DNA from: Citromicrobium bathyomarinum
GTDB taxonomy: Bacteria; Pseudomonadota; Alphaproteobacteria; Sphingomonadales; Sphingomonadaceae
Length of the DNA: 64,000 nucleotides
NCBI RefSeq assembly: GCF_021021475.1
Contig: NZ_JAINWL010000001.1
Coordinates: 1-64,000, forward strand
Direction: 5' to 3'
Shown here: positions 38,342 to 48,068 of the stretch, one piece after another
Layout of the letters: the number at the start of each line of letters is the position of its first letter
Numbering within the stretch: position 1 is the stretch's first letter
Made by a program: the position numbers and the translations under genes
The notes under the pieces: generated by a model
Databases searched by the model: none
What the model was told of the DNA's origin: nothing
What the model saw: only the letters and a program-made list of their open reading frames with translations

Positions 38342-39393
38342 GCTGCGCTTCCGAAATGCCCGGTGGCCATCAGGTAGCCGCTGATGACGAAAACGAAGAT
38401 CAGGCTCATCGGCAGGAAGATCTTCCAGCCAAGCCGCATCAGCTGGTCGTAGCGGTAGCGCGGTACGGTCGCCATCACCCAGCTAAACATGAAGAAGAAG
38501 AACAGCGTCTTCAGCAGGAACCAGATGATGCCGGGCACCCAGTACAGCGGCGCCCAGTCGACAGGCGGCAGCCAACCGCCGAAGAACAGCAGCGTGTTGA
38601 GCGCACACATCAGCAGGATGTTGGCATATTCACCCAGCCAGTAGAGCGCGAAAGCCATGCTGGAATATTCGGTCTGATACCCGGCAACCAGCTCGCTTTC
38701 CGCCTCGGTCAGGTCGAACGGAACGCGCTGCGTTTCCGCGAGCGAACTGATGAAGAACACCACCCACATCGGGAACAGCAACAGGTTGAAATAGAACCCG
38801 TTTACGATGCCGAAACCGTGTCCACGCTGCGCCTCGACGATCTCGGTCAGGTTCCACGAACCCGCCCACAGGACGACGCACACGAGGATGAAGCCGATCG
38901 AGACTTCGTACGAAATCATCTGCGCGGCGGCGCGCATGGCGGAGAAGAACGGGTACTTCGAGTTACTCGCCCACCCGGCCATCACCACGCCGTACACCGA
39001 CAGCGAACTGATCGCGAGGATGTACAGCAGGCCGACATTGATGTCCGCCAATACCACCCCATCGGCGAACGGCACCACCGCCCAAGCGGCAAGCGCCACC
39101 GTGAAGGTGACGATCGGCGCGATGATGAAGATGCCCTTGTTCGCCGCGCTCGGAATGATGGTTTCCTGCAGGAACACCTTCAGACCATCGGCAAAGCTCT
39201 GCAGCAGGCCGAACGGGCCGACCACGTTCGGGCCTTTGCGCAGGTTGATCGCTGCCCAGACCTTGCGGTCGATCAGGATGACGTAGGCGACCGCCAGCAT
39301 CAGCGGCAGCGCAATCAGCAGGATGCCCGCGATGGTCGCGACGAACCACGCCCATTCGTAGTTCATGCCGAGGGATTGGAAGAATTCGGTCAT
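38338..39393 (-). CDS. nuoH: NADH-quinone oxidoreductase subunit H
   Basis: The 351-residue, eight-TM subunit forms the quinone-binding site at the arm junction. Landmarks are the [22 protein letters not shown] loop, [28 protein letters not shown] and [21 protein letters not shown] (the acidic E-channel loop). It overlaps nuoG and the embedded 128-residue gene by 4 bases each. Confidence 0.98.
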
Positions 39394-41432
39394 TCCGCAG
39401 CCTCCAGAATCTCGTCACCGTGGACCAGTTCGGCCGAGCAGCGCTGCATCGTCTCGCTCGCGCGGGCGATGGGATTGGTGAGGTAGAAGTCGGCGATCGG
39501 GTACGCGATCGCGCCCTTGGCCTTGGGCGTTTTCTTGCCCGTGGGCAGCTTGCCCAGCGGCGCGATGCCTTCCTCGCCCAGCGCGGGCACGGCTTCGATC
39601 ATTGCCGACTGCAGCTGTGCGAAGCTGTCGAAGCCCACGCTCACGCCGAAGGCATCGGCAAGGGCGCGCAGGATCGTCCAGTCCTCACGCGCATCGCCGG
39701 GGGCGAACACCGCCTTCTCGGCAAATTGCACGCGGCCTTCGGTGTTCACGTAGGTCCCGTCCTTCTCGGCATAGCTGGCCGCGGGCAGGATGATATCCGC
39801 CGCGTGGGCGCCGGCATCGCCGTGGTGGCCGATATAGACCTTTAGGCTCTTCTCGAACGCGCCGTAGTCGAGCGCGTCCGCGCCGAGCGAGAGCAGCACG
39901 GCAGGCGCGGCGTCGACCACATCCTTGATCCCGCCCTTCTGCGCGTAGCCCAGCATCACCGCGCCCATCCGGGCTGCGGCGGTGTGGATGACGTTGAATC
40001 CGTTCCAGGCCGTTCCGTCCACGTCGCGCACAATGTTCCACTCGTCCGCCAGCGCCAGCGCCGGGTGCAGCGCGCCCGCCGCCAGACCGCCGGGGCCGAC
40101 GATGATCGCAGGCCGCGCAGCGTCCTTGAACGCATCGGCCACGTGGCCGGGCAGATCGTGCAGCAGGGCTGCGTCTTCTCCCAGGAATTCGCAGGCAAAG
40201 GTCGTGTCCCACTCGGGCCCGATCAGGAAGATCTTCGCGCCGCGCTTGGCCGCCTTGCGCAGGCGGACATTGATCAGCGGCGCTTCGTGGCGGACCTGGC
40301 TGCCGACGATCAGGATCGCATCGGCGCTCTCGATACCCGCCAGCGTCGAGTTGAACGCGATTCCGGCGAGGCTGGAGCAGTCATAGTCGAGACCGGTCTG
40401 GCGGCCTTCGAGCTTGTCAGAGCCGAGCTCTGCCAGCAGGCGCTTGGCCGCAAACATCGTCTCGCAATCGACCAGATCGCCCGCGACCGCCGCGATGGAG
40501 CCTTCCCCGCCCTGCTTCGCAGCCTTCACGATCGCGTCGAACGCGTCTTCCCAGCTCGCGCGTTGCAGCTTGCCCGCGTTCGCCCCGCCGACCGCGCGCA
40601 TCCACACCTGGTCGAGCCTGCGCCGCGTCAGGCCGTCGACCTGATAGCGCGCCTTGTCCGAAATCCACTCTTCGTTGACGTCGTCGTTGATCCGCGGGAG
40701 CGCGCGCATGACCTCGCGGCCACGGCTGTCGAGGCGGATATTCGCGCCGACCGCGTCGGACACATCGATGCTCAGCGTCTTCTTCAGCTCCCACGGACGC
40801 GCTTCGTACGCGTAGGGGCGGCTGGTGAGCGCGCCGACCGGGCACAGGTCGATCACGTTGGCGCTCATCTCGTGGGCGGCTGCCTGTTCGAGATAGGTCG
40901 TGATCTGCATGTCTTCGCCGCGATAGAGCGCGCCGATCTCGTCCACGCCCGCGATCTCTTCGGAGAAGCGCACGCAGCGGGTGCAGTGGATGCAGCGGGT
41001 CATGATCGTCTTGATCAGCGGGCCCATGTACTTCTCGGTCACCGCACGCTTGTTCTCGTGATAGCGCGATCCACCGCGACCATAGGCGACCGACTGGTCC
41101 TGCAGGTCGCATTCGCCGCCCTGGTCGCAGATCGGGCAATCGAGCGGGTGGTTGATGAGGAGGAACTCCATCACCCCTTCCCGCGCCGCGCGCACCATCG
41201 GCGTATCCGTGCGGATCTCCTGGCCTTCGGTGGCGGGCAGCGCACAGCTTGCCTGCGGCTTGGGCGGCCCGGGCTTCACTTCGACCAGGCACATGCGGCA
41301 ATTGCCCGCGATGCTCAGCCGCTCGTGATAGCAGAAGCGCGGGATTTCCTTGCCCGCAAGCTCGCACGCCTGCAACACGGTGGCACCTTCCGGTGCGTCG
41401 ATTTCCTGTCCGTCTACGGTGACTTTAGGCAT
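39390..41432 (-). CDS. nuoG: NADH-quinone oxidoreductase subunit G
   Basis: The 680-residue subunit carries clusters N1b, N4 and N5. The N-terminal 2Fe-2S domain has [12 protein letters not shown] and GNCRMC (Cys about 23-48), then the His/Cys N5 ligand region [10 protein letters not shown] and the 4Fe-4[14 protein letters not shown], followed by a molybdopterin-oxidoreductase-like domain without cofactor. Length is the shorter alphaproteobacterial and mitochondrial type. The next upstream gene is not nuoF but a four-gene insertion. Confidence 0.98.
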
Positions 41433-41444
41433 TCTGTCTCAGTC

Positions 41445-42116
41445 CTAGTCCGATTGGCCCGGCAAGCGCGCCGCGCCCGGATTGCGGGTTGCGTGGTACA
41501 GCGCTTCGGCAAGTGCCATGCGAATGTTCATCGGCTTGAGCGCGATCTGCGACCCTTGCGGCATGCAGGGGCCGAAGGTCGGTGCCAGCTCGCGCATGCG
41601 GGCCAGTTCGCTCTTGTCGCCAAGCCTGGTCTCTTCGATCAGCCCGCGCGCCGCCGCGAAGTCTTGCGCGACATAGCAGCGTGCGAAGTCATGTATAGAG
41701 GCGATGCTCTCCGGTTCCTCGATCGCAGGCACGGTCCCCTCCGGCCAGTCGCGCATCGCGTCTTTGAACAGCCCTTCGGCAACCACGCCGCGCACCCATG
41801 CACGCACCAGCGTCGCGCTGACGAAGTTCTGCATGCAGCGGTTGGTCGTGTCGCCGAACAGCGCGTCGAACGCGTCGGCCTCTTGCGGCGAATCGATCGG
41901 CGCATCGACGAAGGCGATCGACCGATCCCGCTTGTTGCTCGCCAGGCACGGGCCGAGCTGGCGGAGCATATAGAAATACTCCTCGTCGTTAGCCGACGTG
42001 GGCGCGCTCGAAAAACCCGAGGTACTCGGGCTCAACTGCGCAAGTGCAGGCGCGCTGCCGCACAGGCTCGCAGCAAGCAGAGCAACGGCAGATAGGGCGG
42101 CGCTGCGCAGGGTCAT
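41445..42116 (-). CDS. Secreted Cys-repeat protein 1 (nuo-embedded paralogue family)
   Basis: The 223-residue protein has a signal peptide (cleavage near PALAQ, residue 27) followed by two repeats. Repeat A spans about 47-118 with Cys57 and Cys94; repeat B about 141-210 with Cys147 and Cys184. Both cysteine pairs are exactly 37 apart, and both repeats end in an Ala/Leu-rich helix (VRGVVAEGLF; IRMALAEALYH). Repeat B contains GPCMPQGSQI, a segment shared with the neighbouring paralogues. Predicted periplasmic or envelope protein with one disulfide per repeat. It is the closest to nuoG (12 bases) and overlaps the next paralogue by 4 bases. Function unknown. Confidence 0.82.
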   Translation of the reverse strand: MTLRSAALSAVALLAASLCGSAPALAQLSPSTSGFSSAPTSANDEEYFYMLRQLGPCLASNKRDRSIAFVDAPIDSPQEADAFDALFGDTTNRCMQNFVSATLVRAWVRGVVAEGLFKDAMRDWPEGTVPAIEEPESIASIHDFARCYVAQDFAAARGLIEETRLGDKSELARMRELAPTFGPCMPQGSQIALKPMNIRMALAEALYHATRNPGAARLPGQSD

Positions 42117-42769
42117 TCGGCACCCTGCCCGGTCAGCCGAGCCGCAAGCCGGTAATACATTGTGGCAAGGCCGAACCGCAGCCGGGCCCGGTCGATCTGT
42201 ACCTCCTGCCCCGCAGGCACGCAGCCGCTGATGACAGGAGCAAGCGCACGAATCGCGGCCTTCTCCTTGTCGCTACCCATCCGGGTGGCAAACAGCGTTC
42301 GCGCGCCCGCAGCATCGGCCCGCGCAATGCACTCGCCGATCCGATACATCAGCGTGTGGCCCTGCGCGGCAGGGCCGCCACCCGCGTAAGTCGCGTTAAG
42401 CGCTTCGAGATCCGCGACATTGTCCAGCGCATCGGAAGCGAGCGTCTTTTCGATAAGCCGCTGGGCGAGCGCACCGCGAAAGAGAAAATCCTCCATCTTC
42501 AGCTTGCCGTGGTTGAAGCCCATGCAGCGCGAATCGAACAGCCGCTTTACTCCGTCCACCCGCGCCGCATCGGCACCATCGGTGAGGACGAAGGCCCGCG
42601 TAATTTCTGGCTCGGCGTCGGCCACGCAGGTGCTGTAATCCACCAGCACATTATGCGCCTGTCTGGTCTCTTTCGCGCTCGGCTGCGCAGCCGCAGGCAC
42701 GGCGATGCCAAGGGCAAGCGCACAGGCTGCCCCCGCCATCGATAGCGAAAAATGTCTGATAGCGAACAT
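42113..42769 (-). CDS. Secreted Cys-repeat protein 2 (nuo-embedded paralogue family)
   Basis: The 218-residue protein has a signal peptide (AVPAAAQPS, cleavage about residue 29). Repeat A has Cys48 and Cys82 (34 apart) and ends FRGALAQRLIEK; repeat B has Cys147 and Cys183 (36 apart) with SGCVPAGQEVQI and ends LRFGLATMYYRLA. The repeat pattern matches the other three proteins of the cluster, although overall identity looks low. No enzyme motif is visible, and a structural or binding role is more likely. It overlaps paralogue 1 and is 10 bases downstream of paralogue 3. Confidence 0.82.
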   Translation of the reverse strand: MFAIRHFSLSMAGAACALALGIAVPAAAQPSAKETRQAHNVLVDYSTCVADAEPEITRAFVLTDGADAARVDGVKRLFDSRCMGFNHGKLKMEDFLFRGALAQRLIEKTLASDALDNVADLEALNATYAGGGPAAQGHTLMYRIGECIARADAAGARTLFATRMGSDKEKAAIRALAPVISGCVPAGQEVQIDRARLRFGLATMYYRLAARLTGQGAE

Positions 42770-42779
42770 CCCTGCCCCC

Positions 42780-43469
42780 TTACCCGGCCTGCGCCATGCG
42801 ATGATAAAGCGGCTCGCTCAGCGCCCGGCGCAGCATTGCAGGCGTGAGCTGGATTTCTTCACCACTCGCGATGCACGGGCCGAGGAACGGGACCAGGCCC
42901 TGAATCGCAGTCTGCTCGCCCGCGGTTCCGGGCGTCGCGGAGATGAACGCGACGCTCTGCGAGGGCGCTGCCGATACGACGCAATCGCCGAATTCCATCA
43001 GCACCATGTAGCGCGCGTCGGCCTGAACTTCGCTCTCGCCCTCGGGTATCAGGGCGAGAAACCACGGCTCCCCGCCACCGATCGCCGCCGTATCGACGGG
43101 CGACTTGAGCCGGTTGGCAACCATCTGTTCGACCAGCATCAGGCGGAACGCCAGAGCGCTCGCCGTCATGATGTCACTACCAACCGCAAGATTACGGTCG
43201 TAATCCATGCAATTGCTCAGATCGCCGAGACCGCGCCTGAACTGGCGGCTTTCCTCGTCACTGCCCGGCAACGCGTCGAGCAGCGCAAGGGCATAGGCGG
43301 GCTTGCGGTCAGCAGCGCACTGCGCAACCACCCGCAGGACCGCCTCCGGGTCGGATTTCTTCGCATTGCCGCCCAGCCGCGTACCCGTCCGCTGCGCTTC
43401 GAGCGGCGCAGTAGCGAACACCGCGATGGCGGCGGCGAGCGTTAACAGGGCGACGATGCGAGCGATCAC
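42780..43469 (-). CDS. Secreted Cys-repeat protein 3 (nuo-embedded paralogue family)
   Basis: With the GTG start at 43467-43469, which overlaps the upstream stop as GTGA, the protein has 229 residues and a clear signal peptide (IVALLTLAAAIAVFATAP). Repeat A has Cys51 and Cys87 (36 apart); repeat B has Cys163 and Cys199 (36 apart), LGPCIASGEEIQL and ends LRRALSEPLYHR. Between the repeats is a longer linker (about residues 115-152) than in the others. The longer ATG frame (to 43574) would bury the signal peptide, so it is rejected. Function unknown. Confidence 0.82.
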   Translation of the reverse strand: MIARIVALLTLAAAIAVFATAPLEAQRTGTRLGGNAKKSDPEAVLRVVAQCAADRKPAYALALLDALPGSDEESRQFRRGLGDLSNCMDYDRNLAVGSDIMTASALAFRLMLVEQMVANRLKSPVDTAAIGGGEPWFLALIPEGESEVQADARYMVLMEFGDCVVSAAPSQSVAFISATPGTAGEQTAIQGLVPFLGPCIASGEEIQLTPAMLRRALSEPLYHRMAQAG

Positions 43470-44119
43470 AGGCCCGTTTCCGATTGCTGGACGGAGAGCC
43501 GATGGAGTGGCTCGGCGATTGCCCCACGCAACATCGACCTGCTGAGTTCGAGCGTTCTGCCTGCCGGAATGCACACTGGCAGCATCGGCATCAGTGATTC
43601 GATTGCATCGGTTTCGCCTGTGCTGGCGATTTCCGAGATGACCAGATCATGCGAGGCGGACGCATCAGCTCTGACCAGGCAGTCGCCCACCGCCATCATC
43701 AGCAAATAACTCGCAGCATCGCCGTCCACATTCTGCGTCTCTGGGGTCGCAACAGGATATTCGAGTGGGGCAAGCTGCGAAAAGTCTTCGATCTCGAGAG
43801 CATCGCCGAACTTGTTTCGATACAAACTCTCGAACGCAGCGCCGCGAAGAACCAGGGGCTGCATGCGCAATTCCACATCGCCGGAAGTGTCGCCAAGACA
43901 GCTCGAGGTTGCGAGCTTTGCCAAGGTCGCCGTGAGGGAAGGATCACCCACAGGGATATCGATCGCCTTGCGCAACTTATAGCCCGACCGGTTCAGCAAA
44001 CAGTCGACATAGGCCGACATTGCCTTGCGCGCGTCAGCTTCGGGCTCTTTATCTCGCGCATGGGCCGGTGCTGCCAGCCCCGCAACCAGAGCCAGAAGAA
44101 GAAGCGCGCGAGCGATCAC
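43466..44119 (-). CDS. Secreted Cys-repeat protein 4 (nuo-embedded paralogue family)
   Basis: The GTG start at 44117-44119 overlaps the nuoF stop (GTGA) and gives a 217-residue product with a signal peptide ([19 protein letters not shown]). Repeat A has Cys40 and Cys74 (34 apart) and ends [11 protein letters not shown]; repeat B has Cys147 and Cys183 (36 apart), [12 protein letters not shown] and ends [12 protein letters not shown]. It is the first of the four after nuoF, so its translation is coupled to the catalytic NADH-binding subunit. Third-position GC looks lower than in nuoF. Function unknown. Confidence 0.82.
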
Positions 44120-45411
44120 TCCGCCGCCTCCGCCATCGCCTCGCCACGCTCGGCGATGCGCCGCTCCAGCTCGGGGCGGAAGTGACGGATCAGGCCCTGG
44201 ATCGGCCACGCGGCGGCATCGCCCAGCGCGCAGATCGTGTGGCCTTCCGCCTGCTTGGTGACGGTGTGGAGCATGTCGATCTCATCGATGTCCGCGTCAC
44301 CCGTCTCGAGCCGCTTCATCACGCGCCACATCCAGCCGGTGCCTTCGCGGCACGGCGTGCACTGGCCGCAGCTCTCGTGCTTGTAGAAGTAGGAAATGCG
44401 GCTGATCGCGCGGACGATGTCGGTCGACTTGTCCATCACGATCACGGCGGCGGTGCCGAGGCCGGAGCCCAGTTCCTTCAGCCCGTCGAAATCCATCGGC
44501 GCGTCCATGATCTGTTCGGCCGGGACGAGCGGGACGGACGAGCCGCCCGGGATCACCGCGAGCAGATTGTCCCACCCGCCGCGAACGCCTCCGCAATGCC
44601 GCTCGATCAGTTCGCGGAAGGGAATGCTCATCTCTTCCTCGACCACGCAGGGCTTTTCGACATGCCCGCTGATCTGGAACAGCTTGGTGCCGTCGTTCTT
44701 CTCGCGCCCGAAGCTGGCGAACCACGAGGGGCCGCGCCGCAGGATCGTGGGCACGACCGCGATGGACTCCACATTGTTCACCGTCGTCGGGCAGCCATAG
44801 AGGCCCGCACCCGCCGGGAACGGCGGCTTGAGGCGCGGCTGGCCCTTCTTGCCTTCGAGGCTTTCGATCAGCGCGGTTTCTTCGCCGCAGATATATGCGC
44901 CCGCACCGCGATGCAGGAACACATCGTAATCATAGCCCGAACCGCACGCGTTCTTGCCGATCAGCCCGGCGTCGTACGCCTCGTCGATCGCCTTTTGCAG
45001 CGTCTCCGCCTCGCGGATATATTCGCCACGAATGTAGATGTAGGCGGCCCGCGCGCGCATCGCGAAGCCCGCGACCAGCGCGCCTTCGATCAGCTTGTGC
45101 GGATCGTGCCGCATGATCTCGCGGTCCTTGCACGAACCGGGTTCGGATTCGTCGGCATTGATGACCAGGAAGCTGGGCCGGCCGTCCTTGCTTTCCTTGG
45201 GCATGAAGGACCACTTCATGCCCGTGGGGAAGCCCGCACCGCCGCGACCGCGAAGGCCCGAGGCCTTCATGTCGTCGATGATCGAATCCTGCCCCTTGGC
45301 GAGCAGCGCTTTGGTATCGTCCCAGTCGCCACGCGCCTGCGCGGCCTTCAGGCCCCAGTCCTGAAACCCGTAGAGGTTGGTGAAAATGCGGTCCTTATCG
45401 GCCAGGCTCAT
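44116..45411 (-). CDS. nuoF: NADH-quinone oxidoreductase subunit F
   Basis: The 431-residue subunit binds NADH, FMN and cluster N3. It has [16 protein letters not shown] (NADH site), [17 protein letters not shown] (FMN), and the N3 ligands [15 protein letters not shown] with the fourth Cys in [12 protein letters not shown]. Start MSLADK at 45411 is the family N-terminus; it overlaps the upstream 47-residue gene by 4 bases (ATGA). Confidence 0.98.
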
Positions 45412-45551
45412 GCCATAACTCCAAACACAACATAGGCTGCCACGGCGAGGATCGCGAGCAGCGCGAGCGTCTTGAAAATGCCGCTCAGCACCTTCCACGC
45501 GATAGCAATGGCAATCAGCGCCACGATGATGGTGACGATGTTAGTTTCCAT
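45408..45551 (-). CDS. Small membrane protein (47 residues) between nuoE and nuoF
   Basis: The product [19 protein letters not shown]... is almost entirely hydrophobic, with one or two TM helices (about 5-20 and 26-45) split by [15 protein letters not shown] six bases before the ATG at 45551 is one of the best ribosome-binding sites in the operon, so it is likely translated well. It overlaps both the 61-residue gene and nuoF. No family recognised; it may be an accessory membrane subunit or assembly factor, by location only. Confidence 0.7.
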
Positions 45552-45726
45552 CGATCGCCTCCTCGGCCCCATTGCTTCGGCTGAAAATCCCCAGTCCGCC
45601 AAACACGACGCCCAAGATCAGCCACATGACCCAATCGTCGCCCCGCAGGAACTCGACCAGCGCGAGCACCAGGAACAGCACCCCGACGGCGGGGAAGCCT
45701 TTACGGGCAGTCGCACCCACTACCAT
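45541..45726 (-). CDS. Small two-TM protein (61 residues) after nuoE
   Basis: The product MVVGATARKGFPAVGVLFLVLALVEFL... has two TM helices (about 13-28 and 34-50) joined by RGDDW, and a polar tail [13 protein letters not shown]. The ATG at 45726 overlaps the end of nuoE by 7 bases and the stop overlaps the next small gene. The ribosome site is weak (GGGGCG), consistent with coupling to nuoE. The ATG-to-TAA frame is short but preserves membrane character. No family recognised. Confidence 0.6.
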   Translation of the reverse strand: MVVGATARKGFPAVGVLFLVLALVEFLRGDDWVMWLILGVVFGGLGIFSRSNGAEEAIDGN

Positions 45727-46388
45727 TCGCCCCGGTAATCGTGGTTTTCGGTGACCATGTCCTTGAGCGTGGTCGGCCCACCACTGGGTTCGGACGTGTG
45801 GCGACCGGGCTCCTGCGTACCCGTCTTGGGCTGTTCGCCCTTGGCCAGCGCATCGAGCACGGCGTCGAGCCGCTCGGGCGTCAGGTCTTCGTAATTGTCG
45901 TCGTTGATCTGGACCATCGGCGCGGTCGCGCAATTGCCCATGCATTCGACTTCGGTGAGCGTCCACAGCCCGTCGTCCGAGACGTGGCCCTTCTTCATCC
46001 CCCTCGCCTTGCACGCGGCGATAATGTCGTCGCTGCCGCGCAGCATGCACGGCGTCGTGCCGCACACCTGGACGTGGTACTTACCCACGGGCTTGAGGTT
46101 GTACATGAAGTAGAAGGTCGCGACCTCGAGCACGCGGATGACCGGCATGTCGAGATAGCTCGCGACATACTCGATCACCGGCAGCGGCAGCCAGCCTTGC
46201 GTATCGGTTTCCTCGCCGACCTGCCTCTGGGCAAGATCGAGCAGCGGCATCACTGCCGACTTGCTGCGGCCTTCCGGGTAGCGCGCGATCGCCTTCTTCG
46301 CCTTCGCCTCGTACTCGGGCGAGAACGCAAAATTGCCCCACCGCTCGCGCAGTTCGGGAGTATCGGGTGCGGGTTGACGGTCAGCCAT
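45720..46388 (-). CDS. nuoE: NADH-quinone oxidoreductase subunit E
   Basis: The 222-residue thioredoxin-fold subunit carries cluster N1a with ligands CGTTPCMLRG and CMGNCATAP. The helical N-terminal part (FAFSPEYEAKAKKAIARYPEGR) and the tail after residue 190 (TGTQEPGRHTSEPSGGPTTLKDM) are typical of alphaproteobacterial NuoE. It overlaps the embedded 157-residue gene upstream by 8 bases. Confidence 0.97.
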   Translation of the reverse strand: MADRQPAPDTPELRERWGNFAFSPEYEAKAKKAIARYPEGRSKSAVMPLLDLAQRQVGEETDTQGWLPLPVIEYVASYLDMPVIRVLEVATFYFMYNLKPVGKYHVQVCGTTPCMLRGSDDIIAACKARGMKKGHVSDDGLWTLTEVECMGNCATAPMVQINDDNYEDLTPERLDAVLDALAKGEQPKTGTQEPGRHTSEPSGGPTTLKDMVTENHDYRGEW

Positions 46389-46854
46389 TGGTCACCTCCA
46401 TCAACGAGCCCTCAATCAATTCATGGCTCGCACCGGTCATGTGTACGAGCAATCCATTTCGGTAGGTGAACGTCACAAGATATCCATAAGATCGGTCAGC
46501 CGGAATGAACTCAATCTCCGTTTGTCGCTCGGCACAATAAGCAGTGGCTGGTGATGGCGCTCGGTAAGGTTGGTAGCGCCAAACGTAGCTGTCGGCCTCC
46601 AACCACGACACGAAGGTAATTAAGCCTTCCGGCCCGTCATAGCTCGTACCAATGTGAGCTTGCCTGACGCTCTTTACGTCGGGTGAGACCGCCACCGAGA
46701 CGGATTCCAGATCACCGCGTTTTGCGGCAGCGATTATGGCAACGCTGCGCTCAGCAAAAAACCGATCGACTTCTTCAGTCGGGACAAAATCAGATGATTG
46801 CACCGGACATGGATTGGTCATGCCCGCTGCAAGCAAGAGACCAACGCCAATCAC
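46381..46854 (-). CDS. Secreted unknown protein embedded between nuoD and nuoE
   Basis: The 157-residue protein begins at GTG 46852-46854 (GTGA overlap with the nuoD stop). A short signal peptide ([16 protein letters not shown]) may end in a lipobox-like Cys, though the residues before it are not ideal. The body ([49 protein letters not shown]) resembles an NTF2/SnoaL-like cone fold, a guess from pattern. GC counted over 46441-46620 is 52 percent, lower than nuoD and nuoE. Function unknown. Confidence 0.75.
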
Positions 46855-48068
46855 CGGTCGCACTCCCCGAACACGACGTCGATTGCGCCGAGGATGGCGG
46901 TGGCGTCGGGCAGCATGTGGCCCTTGGTCATCATGTCCATCGCCTGCAGATGCGAGAACGCCGTCGGGCGGATCTTGCAGCGGTACGGCTTGTTGGTGCC
47001 GTCGCTGACCAGGTACACGCCGAACTCGCCCTTGGGGCTTTCGGTCGCGACGTAGACCTCGCCCGCGGGCACGTGGAAGCCCTCGGTGTAGAGCTTGAAG
47101 TGATGGATCAGCGCTTCCATCGACTGCTTCATCTCGCCGCGCTTGGGCGGCACGACCTTGCGGTCGTCCGATGCGATCGGGCCGGTCGGCATTTCCGCCA
47201 GGCACTGCTTGATGATCTTCATGCTCTGGTAGACTTCCTGCACGCGAACCATGAAGCGGTCGTAGCAGTCCGAATTGGTGCCCACCGGCACTTCGAAGTC
47301 CATCCGGTCATAGACGTCGTAGGGCTGCGACTTACGCAGATCCCAAGGCACGCCCGCCGCGCGCAGCATCGGGCCGGAGAAGCCCCACTTGATCGCGTCT
47401 TCGCGGCTGACCACAGCGATATCGACATTGCGCTGCTTGAAGATGCGGTTGTCCATCACGAGGCTCATCGCGTCGCCGAACAGTTCGGGCACGCGGTTGT
47501 CGAGCCATTCGCCGATATCCACCAGCAGCTTCTCGGGCACGTCCTGGTGCACGCCGCCGGGGCGGAACCAGGCGGAGTGCATGCGCGCGCCGCTCGCCCG
47601 CTCGAAGAAGTTCATGCAGTCTTCGCGCAGCTCGAAAATCCACAGGTTCGGCGTCATCGCGCCGACATCCATCACGTGCGCGCCGATGTTGAGGAAGTGG
47701 TTCGACATGCGCGTCAGCTCGGCGAACAGCACCCGCAGATACTGCGCACGGATCGGCACTTCGAGATTCAGCAGCTTCTCGATCGCGAGGACGTAGCTGT
47801 GCTCCATGCACAGCGGCGAACAGTAATCGAGCCGGTCGAAATAGGGCAGCGCCTGCAGGTAGGTCTTGTGCTCGATCAGCTTTTCGGTGCCGCGGTGCAG
47901 GAGGCCGACATGCGGATCGACCCGCTCCACGATTTCGCCGTCGAGCTCCATCACCATGCGCAGCACGCCGTGCGCCGCAGGGTGCTGAGGCCCGAAATTG
48001 ATCGTGTAGTTGGTGATCTGCTCGTCGCCGGTGGTCGGCGATTCTTCGATCGTCAGCCCGTGTGCCAT
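46851..48068 (-). CDS. nuoD: NADH-quinone oxidoreductase subunit D
   Basis: The 405-residue 49-kDa-type subunit helps form the quinone pocket. It has [18 protein letters not shown] (His near quinone), [46 protein letters not shown] and the C-terminal VVFGECDR. Start MAHGLT at 48068. nuoC and nuoD are separate genes, unlike the E. coli fusion. Confidence 0.98.

Follow-up and report, generated by a model that had tools for sequence, protein, structure and literature searches.

A family of secreted-looking, cysteine-paired repeat proteins, apparently unrecognised until now, in the nuoF-nuoG junction of Sphingomonadaceae

Results

Four genes fill the interval between nuoF and nuoG

The window analysed here is a stretch of 64,000 nucleotides of Citromicrobium bathyomarinum (family Sphingomonadaceae; contig NZ_JAINWL010000001.1, positions 1 to 64,000). 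In its complex I (nuo) operon, the interval between nuoF and nuoG (41445-44119) is filled by four co-oriented minus-strand open reading frames (ORFs), which we call X1 to X4. They apparently belong to a hitherto unrecognised protein family, whose members carry two copies of one cysteine-pair module behind a predicted signal peptide. The genes are the following, in the order of transcription.

44116..45411, minus strand: nuoF, upstream operon neighbour (ORF; found in 113/119 genomes of the window's bacterial family at E<=1e-100)
43466..44119, minus strand: X1, two-repeat four-cysteine protein with signal peptide, GTG start, 217 aa (family hidden Markov model, HMM; AlphaFold model)
42780..43469, minus strand: X2, two-repeat four-cysteine protein with signal peptide, GTG start, 229 aa (family HMM)
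42113..42769, minus strand: X3, two-repeat four-cysteine protein with signal peptide, 218 aa (family HMM)
41445..42116, minus strand: X4, two-repeat four-cysteine protein with signal peptide, ATG start, 223 aa (family HMM; AlphaFold model)
39390..41432, minus strand: nuoG, downstream operon neighbour (ORF; found in 114/119 genomes of the bacterial family at E<=1e-100)

The genes are tightly packed. The starts of X1 and X2 overlap the stops of nuoF and X1, respectively, as GTGA, the start of X4 overlaps the stop of X3 as ATGA, and only 10 nt separate X2 from X3 and 12 nt X4 from nuoG. The proteins themselves are far apart, since X2, X3 and X4 are 27%, 29% and 20% identical to X1. The frames are conserved as coding, as the original prediction, made from the letters of the window alone, had supposed: they are intact in another genome of the species (G060) and in another of the genus (G001; G and L numbers are our own labels for genomes and loci). 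The ratio of nonsynonymous to synonymous change (dN/dS) is 0.03-0.43 in 13 comparisons with few changes each among G000, G001 and G060 (for X4 also G005), against 0.04 for nuoF and 0.07 for nuoG. These values lie mostly above those of the two neighbours, and hence X1-X4 are kept, but mostly under weaker constraint.

The family is frequent in the nuoF-nuoG junctions of one bacterial family

A profile built from X1-X4 matched 17 of 60 genomes (own included), every one in the window's bacterial family, and in most of the loci fetched from that search the match lies between nuoF and nuoG. The original prediction had pointed to the nuoF-nuoG regions of relatives as a place to look, and the family is indeed in 48 of the 73 junctions that we read, with 76 members recognised by an iterated HMM. 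These were drawn from 104 ORFs called with a simple ORF/GC-position rule, so that the cut-off (E<1e-3) refers to a database of only 104 sequences. The distance between nuoF and nuoG could be taken in 111 of the 119 genomes of the bacterial family: it is below 120 bp in 42 and at least 120 bp in 69, reaching 3.9 kb. The junctions read are 68 of these 69 (G102 was not fetched) and those of five more genomes of the genus; shorter junctions went unread except in G007 and G004. Among the 48 genomes, 29 have one copy in the junction, 14 two, one three and four have four. Outside this tally, the junction of G264 has five family matches.

What defines the family is its cysteines. Exactly four occur beyond residue 25 in 71 of the 76 members; of the other five, two carry five cysteines, one carries six, and two, both of them fragments, carry two. 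We aligned 65 of the 76, leaving out eight near-duplicates (G001, G060), the fragments G124_4 and G092_2 and the weak member G139_1. All four cysteines are invariant in this alignment despite a mean column identity of 17%, and repeat B also holds one Glu and one Arg at 90% conservation or more. The first two cysteines are 33-42 residues apart, the last two 36 in 62 proteins and 37 in three. Thus all 65, X1-X4 included, have four cysteines, two per module, with a second spacing of 36-37.

The profile of these 65 rows matches 54 of the 119 genomes of the window's bacterial family (own included). At the level of the order it matches 56 of 196, all 56 in that same bacterial family, and at the level of the class 4 of 240, namely the genome of the window, a second one of the bacterial family and two false positives. 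The weak matches outside the bacterial family (G381, G467) were rejected as members on inspection of their ORFs: one presumably encodes a class I lysyl-tRNA synthetase, the other a secreted protein resembling a cyclase. The searches of family, order and class scored no more than 24, 14 and 12 first-look candidates per genome, respectively, and absences are therefore not absolute. Among the genomes searched, credible members thus appear, by sequence, to be limited to the window's bacterial family.

Position is strongly biased as well. The 119 genomes hold 85 matches, of which 67, spread over 44 genomes, are in the nuoF-nuoG junction and four are elsewhere in nuo. G069 has two of these four, upstream of nuoG and close to the end of a contig, and G100 and G137 have one each. 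The member of G100 lies between nuoG and nuoH, where G248, of the same genus (g89), has two. The member of G137 (L158) is directly behind nuoF, nuoG being on another contig, and is followed by an ORF that we take to be gyrA. Members that come first in a junction overlap the stop of nuoF by 4 nt in 26 of 47 cases (24 of 45 without the near-duplicate G001 and G060), and 15 of 28 junctions between tandem members are 4-nt overlaps (11 of 22 without them). Among 24 genomes from seven further families of the order, 23 have NuoF and NuoG on one contig. Coordinate subtraction puts 20 of these 23 junctions below 100 bp, and the three larger gaps (G046, G040, G043) have no family member inside.

Some further observations concern neighbouring junctions of nuo. 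In genus g89 the nuoG-nuoH members (L155:4262-5595, L157:4778-5440) show 4-nt overlaps. In the window, small membrane-type ORFs lie in the nuoE-nuoF junction (45408-45602 and 45541-45726) and the tail of a secreted-looking ORF lies in the nuoD-nuoE junction (46381-47205). One of these ORFs gave nothing above the cut-off in a library scan.

One cysteine-pair module, duplicated within each protein

Profiles of the repeat A and repeat B halves of the 65 members align to each other with an hhalign probability of 98.7% and a score of 72.3 over 74 columns. The alignment superposes cysteine on cysteine and the LR-LAEALY helix on its counterpart. The best of 200 column shuffles scored 14.9 and the reversed profile 10.7, and masking the cysteines left a score of 57.5. 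An HMM of the repeat (independent E-value, i-E, <1) finds two modules in 72 of the 76 members, one in three and three in one. The weaker module of the two-module members always has at least 14.5 bits, whereas the best of 1520 letter-shuffled proteins reached 13.8 bits. On these profile comparisons, the two halves are a true internal duplication of one cysteine-pair module. The original prediction was thus right about this duplication (72.3 against a shuffle maximum of 14.9), about the paralogy of all eight repeats, which the repeat profile and HMM comparisons bear out, and exactly right about the positions and spacings of the cysteines listed here. It had taken the single module to be of about 65 residues, which is too short, as the aligned unit has about 75. 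The repeats, as delimited by the repeat HMM, are these:

43802..44041, minus strand: X1 repeat A, aa 27-106, Cys 40 and 74
43487..43717, minus strand: X1 repeat B, aa 135-211, Cys 147 and 183
43116..43355, minus strand: X2 repeat A, aa 39-118, Cys 51 and 87
42786..43019, minus strand: X2 repeat B, aa 151-228, Cys 163 and 199
42437..42664, minus strand: X3 repeat A, aa 36-111, Cys 48 and 82
42140..42370, minus strand: X3 repeat B, aa 134-210, Cys 147 and 183
41748..41984, minus strand: X4 repeat A, aa 45-123, Cys 57 and 94
41481..41714, minus strand: X4 repeat B, aa 135-212, Cys 147 and 184

The module may also occur alone. A protein of 90 aa with two cysteines in a nuoF-nuoG junction (G128_1) is 48% identical, in an alignment of 86 residues, to the C-terminal part of the six-cysteine protein G025_1, the region that contains the third module of the latter. 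G128_1 is likely, though not firmly, a single-module member.

Secretion signal, predicted fold and searches of known families

A hydropathy rule finds an N-terminal hydrophobic stretch in 74 of the 76 members, in keeping with the signal peptides proposed originally. An A-x-A is present in 65 of the 76, a lipobox-like sequence in one and another membrane-like segment in three. AlphaFold models of the mature proteins are all-helical and confident, both for X1 (predicted local distance difference test, pLDDT, 89.9; predicted template modelling score, pTM, 0.87) and for X4 (pLDDT 88.6, pTM 0.84), and the two share one order of helices, four plus four. Going by sequence position, each module has its first cysteine in helix 1 and its second in helix 3 or at most about 7 residues from the end of that helix. 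Foldseek found no match in the PDB at E<=0.001 for X1 (best 0.68) or X4 (best 1.2), nor for X1 in BFVD at the same threshold (best 0.66). Since confident models lack a PDB match, the predicted fold of X1 and X4 is likely new to the PDB, in a comparison that covered the PDB, plus BFVD for X1.

Sequence libraries tell a similar story. In Pfam and NCBIfam nothing matches X1-X4 at E<=10, PADLOC recognises none of its families among the 65 members at E<=0.01, and sequence searches of the PDB gave no convincing solved chain for X2 alone or for the 65-member profile (best E 0.31). Isolated matches of single proteins among the 65 were judged to be due to chance: a TPR-type model of Pfam (E 0.0028) and, in NCBIfam, RlmH models (E 4.6e-5 and 0.00065) and LipL32 (E 0.0035). 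By title and opening of the abstract, nothing describing X1-X4-type genes was found in the open-access full-text literature, which is no proof of absence. The earlier statement that no known family has this pattern therefore stands across Pfam, NCBIfam, PADLOC and the PDB sequence searches.

Old lineages at a volatile address

It had been proposed that the four genes arose by amplification inside this operon. The tree of the 65 proteins contradicts it. X4 groups with G005_2 and with G025_2, a protein from another genus, and X3 groups with G005_1, of the same genus, both with full support; X1 is in a supported clade of 8 rows and X2 in a supported clade of 12 rows of other genera, with weak nearest forks for these two. 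The four proteins thus fall in four separate clades shared with other genomes. Constraining them to one clade costs 176.8 log units and is rejected by the approximately unbiased (AU) test (p-AU 0.000128), in a tree with long branches and for a group that the original prediction had named beforehand. With G001 and G060 left out, the best BLAST match of each of the four is in another genome and not in the array. Separate supported clades and a rejected single clade indicate old separate lineages at one shared address. As far as these trees go, X1-X4 are anciently separated lineages and not recent copies of each other.

The content of this address changes between close relatives. Within the genus, G001 and G060 have all four genes, G005 has two, G002 two distant members and G006 one distant member; in G003 and G008 no member was recognised among the ORFs present, and the junction is empty in G007 and G004, where the matches of nuoF and nuoG end and begin 3 bases apart. 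Meanwhile, NuoG is 93-98% identical in all the genomes compared within the genus except G004 (83%). By these comparisons, the nuoF-nuoG address is volatile within the genus while NuoG stays nearly constant. Further away, X4 and its relative in G025 are 42% identical, for 77% in NuoG and 88% in NuoF.

Members outside nuo and N-terminal motifs

A non-nuo subfamily includes L046:6179-9751 (four tandem copies), L049:4369-5265, L145:4058-5083, L146:4538-5335 and L150:4588-5451. Six non-nuo ORFs in five loci have a loose DIVVTG-like pattern near the N-terminus, read as DIVVTG, DVVVTG, DIVVTA, DIVVEG, DIIVKG and DILVEG. They are small soluble-looking proteins, yet the motif resembles that of receptor-like proteins. 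Among junction members, [TIV]G[TS][RL] occurs within residues 16-55 in 15 of 68; 200 shuffles gave 0.38 on average and never more than 3. It is in none of 15 non-family proteins with a signal by the same rule and in 8 of 43 family proteins, but a control of 15 proteins is too small to carry weight. When the window's genome was searched with a DNA pattern of a similar motif, seven places matched. Among the frames read there, the motif comes right after the signal region in three receptor-like proteins and in one that is lipoprotein-like; the remaining places were unrelated or unreadable in frame. We take the receptor-like proteins to be TonB-dependent receptors and the motif to be TonB-box-like. 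In the same genome, a lipoprotein-like ORF of 579 aa (L165) has the motifs EIVLTG and MVTGSRI flanking a proline run.

Discussion

A proposed role and its alternatives

We put at even chances the proposal that X1-X4 are periplasmic, disulfide-locked helical binding or adaptor proteins, co-expressed with complex I and dispensable for it. The proteins would be exported to the periplasm and undergo oxidative folding there, each cysteine pair closing as a disulfide that links helix 1 with the helix 3 region. The tied modules would then form a rigid helical binding surface. Such binding or adaptor proteins would be made in step with complex I and would most likely work at the periplasmic face of the inner membrane or in the envelope, and their lineages would turn over by gene gain and loss at one permissive junction. 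Their partners might vary from one species to another, and this would account for proteins that diverge fast around an unchanging core of cysteines and helices. Complex I itself should not need them, because nuoF and nuoG lie less than 120 bp apart in 42 of 111 genomes.

Several observations weigh against this proposal. Fourteen of the 85 matches are outside nuo, although one of them, a weak fragmentary match in G114 (E 8.8e-5) to the first 53 positions of the profile, may be no member. In one of the non-nuo members, L042:814-1773 (G019), the two-repeat region is fused to a TonB C-terminal domain (TonB_C, PF03544, E 3e-13), and this fusion points away from complex I. The ORF upstream of it is presumably an acyl-CoA synthetase, and TonB_C is absent from X1-X4 (Pfam, E<=10), from the 65 aligned members and from the four non-nuo members scanned. 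One disulfide within each repeat is probable from the sequences, but the pairing is one that we infer. If G128_1 is a single module with two cysteines, the pair should close within the module, yet the general repeat HMM is only marginal there (i-E 0.034, and 0.099 in G025_1). The 4-nt overlaps suggest co-translation and are not proof of it. Moreover, unrelated genes share nuoF-nuoG junctions (L039:5522-5929, L070:301-711, L161:244-787, L162:313-1236 and others). They include aspartyl-protease-like ORFs (with PF13650 at E 2.3e-5 in G034 and a weaker match in G089), small membrane-type proteins and, in two genomes of other bacterial families, a small ORF pair and a secreted-looking protein of 307 aa. 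The junction may simply be permissive, and looks like an insertion hotspot within the complex I operon. Finally, an old insertion that was simply inherited could account for the shared address, without any functional link to complex I.

If the junction is a permissive hotspot, X1-X4 might be passengers with strong constitutive expression, acting for example in envelope defence, immunity or TonB-linked uptake. The variety of junction occupants just described, the variable copy number and the fast turnover are what one would expect from passengers, and the TonB-linked hints, i.e. the single TonB_C fusion and the DIVVTG-like N-termini of some non-nuo members, favour them as well. But none of the 65 members matches PADLOC, no toxin or recombinase was recognised beside X1-X4 in the window's junction, and random insertion does not predict that one family dominates the junction. 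We regard this account as rather unlikely. The strong retention in nuo, with 67 of 85 matches in the junction and four elsewhere in the operon, speaks instead for clade-specific accessory subunits or assembly or stability factors on the periplasmic face of complex I, encoded in the operon for proportionate synthesis. So do the nuoG-nuoH members of genus g89 (G248, G100), the member of G137 that stays behind nuoF though nuoG is on another contig, and the frequent start-stop overlaps. Against such parts, nuoF and nuoG are close together in the 42 genomes mentioned, with their matches 3 bases apart in G007 and G004 of the same genus; NuoG remains 93-98% identical across the genus (G004 excepted) where the proteins of the junction have been exchanged or have disappeared, and related proteins exist outside nuo. 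An accessory role is thus unlikely in our view. Unlikely as well is a bolder version of it, in which the whole family, disulfide-locked and with a new fold, would supply exchangeable, species-specific periplasmic subunits or regulators of complex I in one bacterial family, swapped at a fixed junction while the core enzyme stays almost unchanged.

Two other explanations fare worse. Adjacent paralogues of one architecture would naturally result from a recent tandem amplification of one gene inside the operon, but with 20-29% identity to X1, best matches in other genomes and a single clade rejected under the model used (p 0.000128) this is very improbable. The lack of any library match for X1-X4 could also mean spurious ORFs or chance resemblance, which conserved frames, dN/dS of 0.03-0.43, four invariant cysteines and a confident fold render next to impossible.

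Complex I operons are among the best-studied in bacteria. Yet, within our searches, this one harbours, across many genomes, a common, fast-changing and secreted-looking family without name, model or solved structure. Should the family make contact with complex I, there would be periplasmic accessory parts in bacteria that are specific to a clade. Otherwise, the nuoF-nuoG junction offers a convenient address at which to find lineage-specific envelope genes. Confident models without a PDB match make the family a target for structure work.

Comparison with known systems

The Helicobacter cysteine-rich proteins (Hcp) are made of Sel1-like repeats with one disulfide per repeat and a short spacing between its cysteines. 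X1-X4 resemble them in being secreted, by prediction, and in consisting of tandem repeats that are all-helical and hold a conserved pair of cysteines each. They differ in the distance between these cysteines, 33-42 residues in our family against the short spacing of Hcp, and in that no Pfam repeat model, of the Hcp, Sel1 or TPR kind, matches X1-X4 at E<=10. No Hcp structure is among the best 50 of 151 Foldseek matches of X1 or the best 50 of 109 of X4. With the TonB C-terminal domain proteins (PF03544) the likeness is limited to the L042 member, which carries the domain, whereas X1-X4 do not.

A further comparison is with the supernumerary complex I subunits of alphaproteobacteria, such as PdNUMM, PdNUYM and PdN7BM of Paracoccus (PMC8115037). 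X1-X4 are also extra proteins tied to bacterial complex I, in this case by operon position. Unlike these subunits, they have secretion signals, are encoded in the operon, are absent from many relatives and are candidate partners of the complex; Pfam, NCBIfam and PDB sequence searches showed no homology of the family to a known complex I subunit. As far as the Pfam, NCBIfam, PADLOC, PDB sequence, Foldseek and open-access literature searches reach, no existing family or described system was found to include X1-X4, which, judging from sequences and models, would combine a likely new fold with a fixed site in a core respiratory operon.

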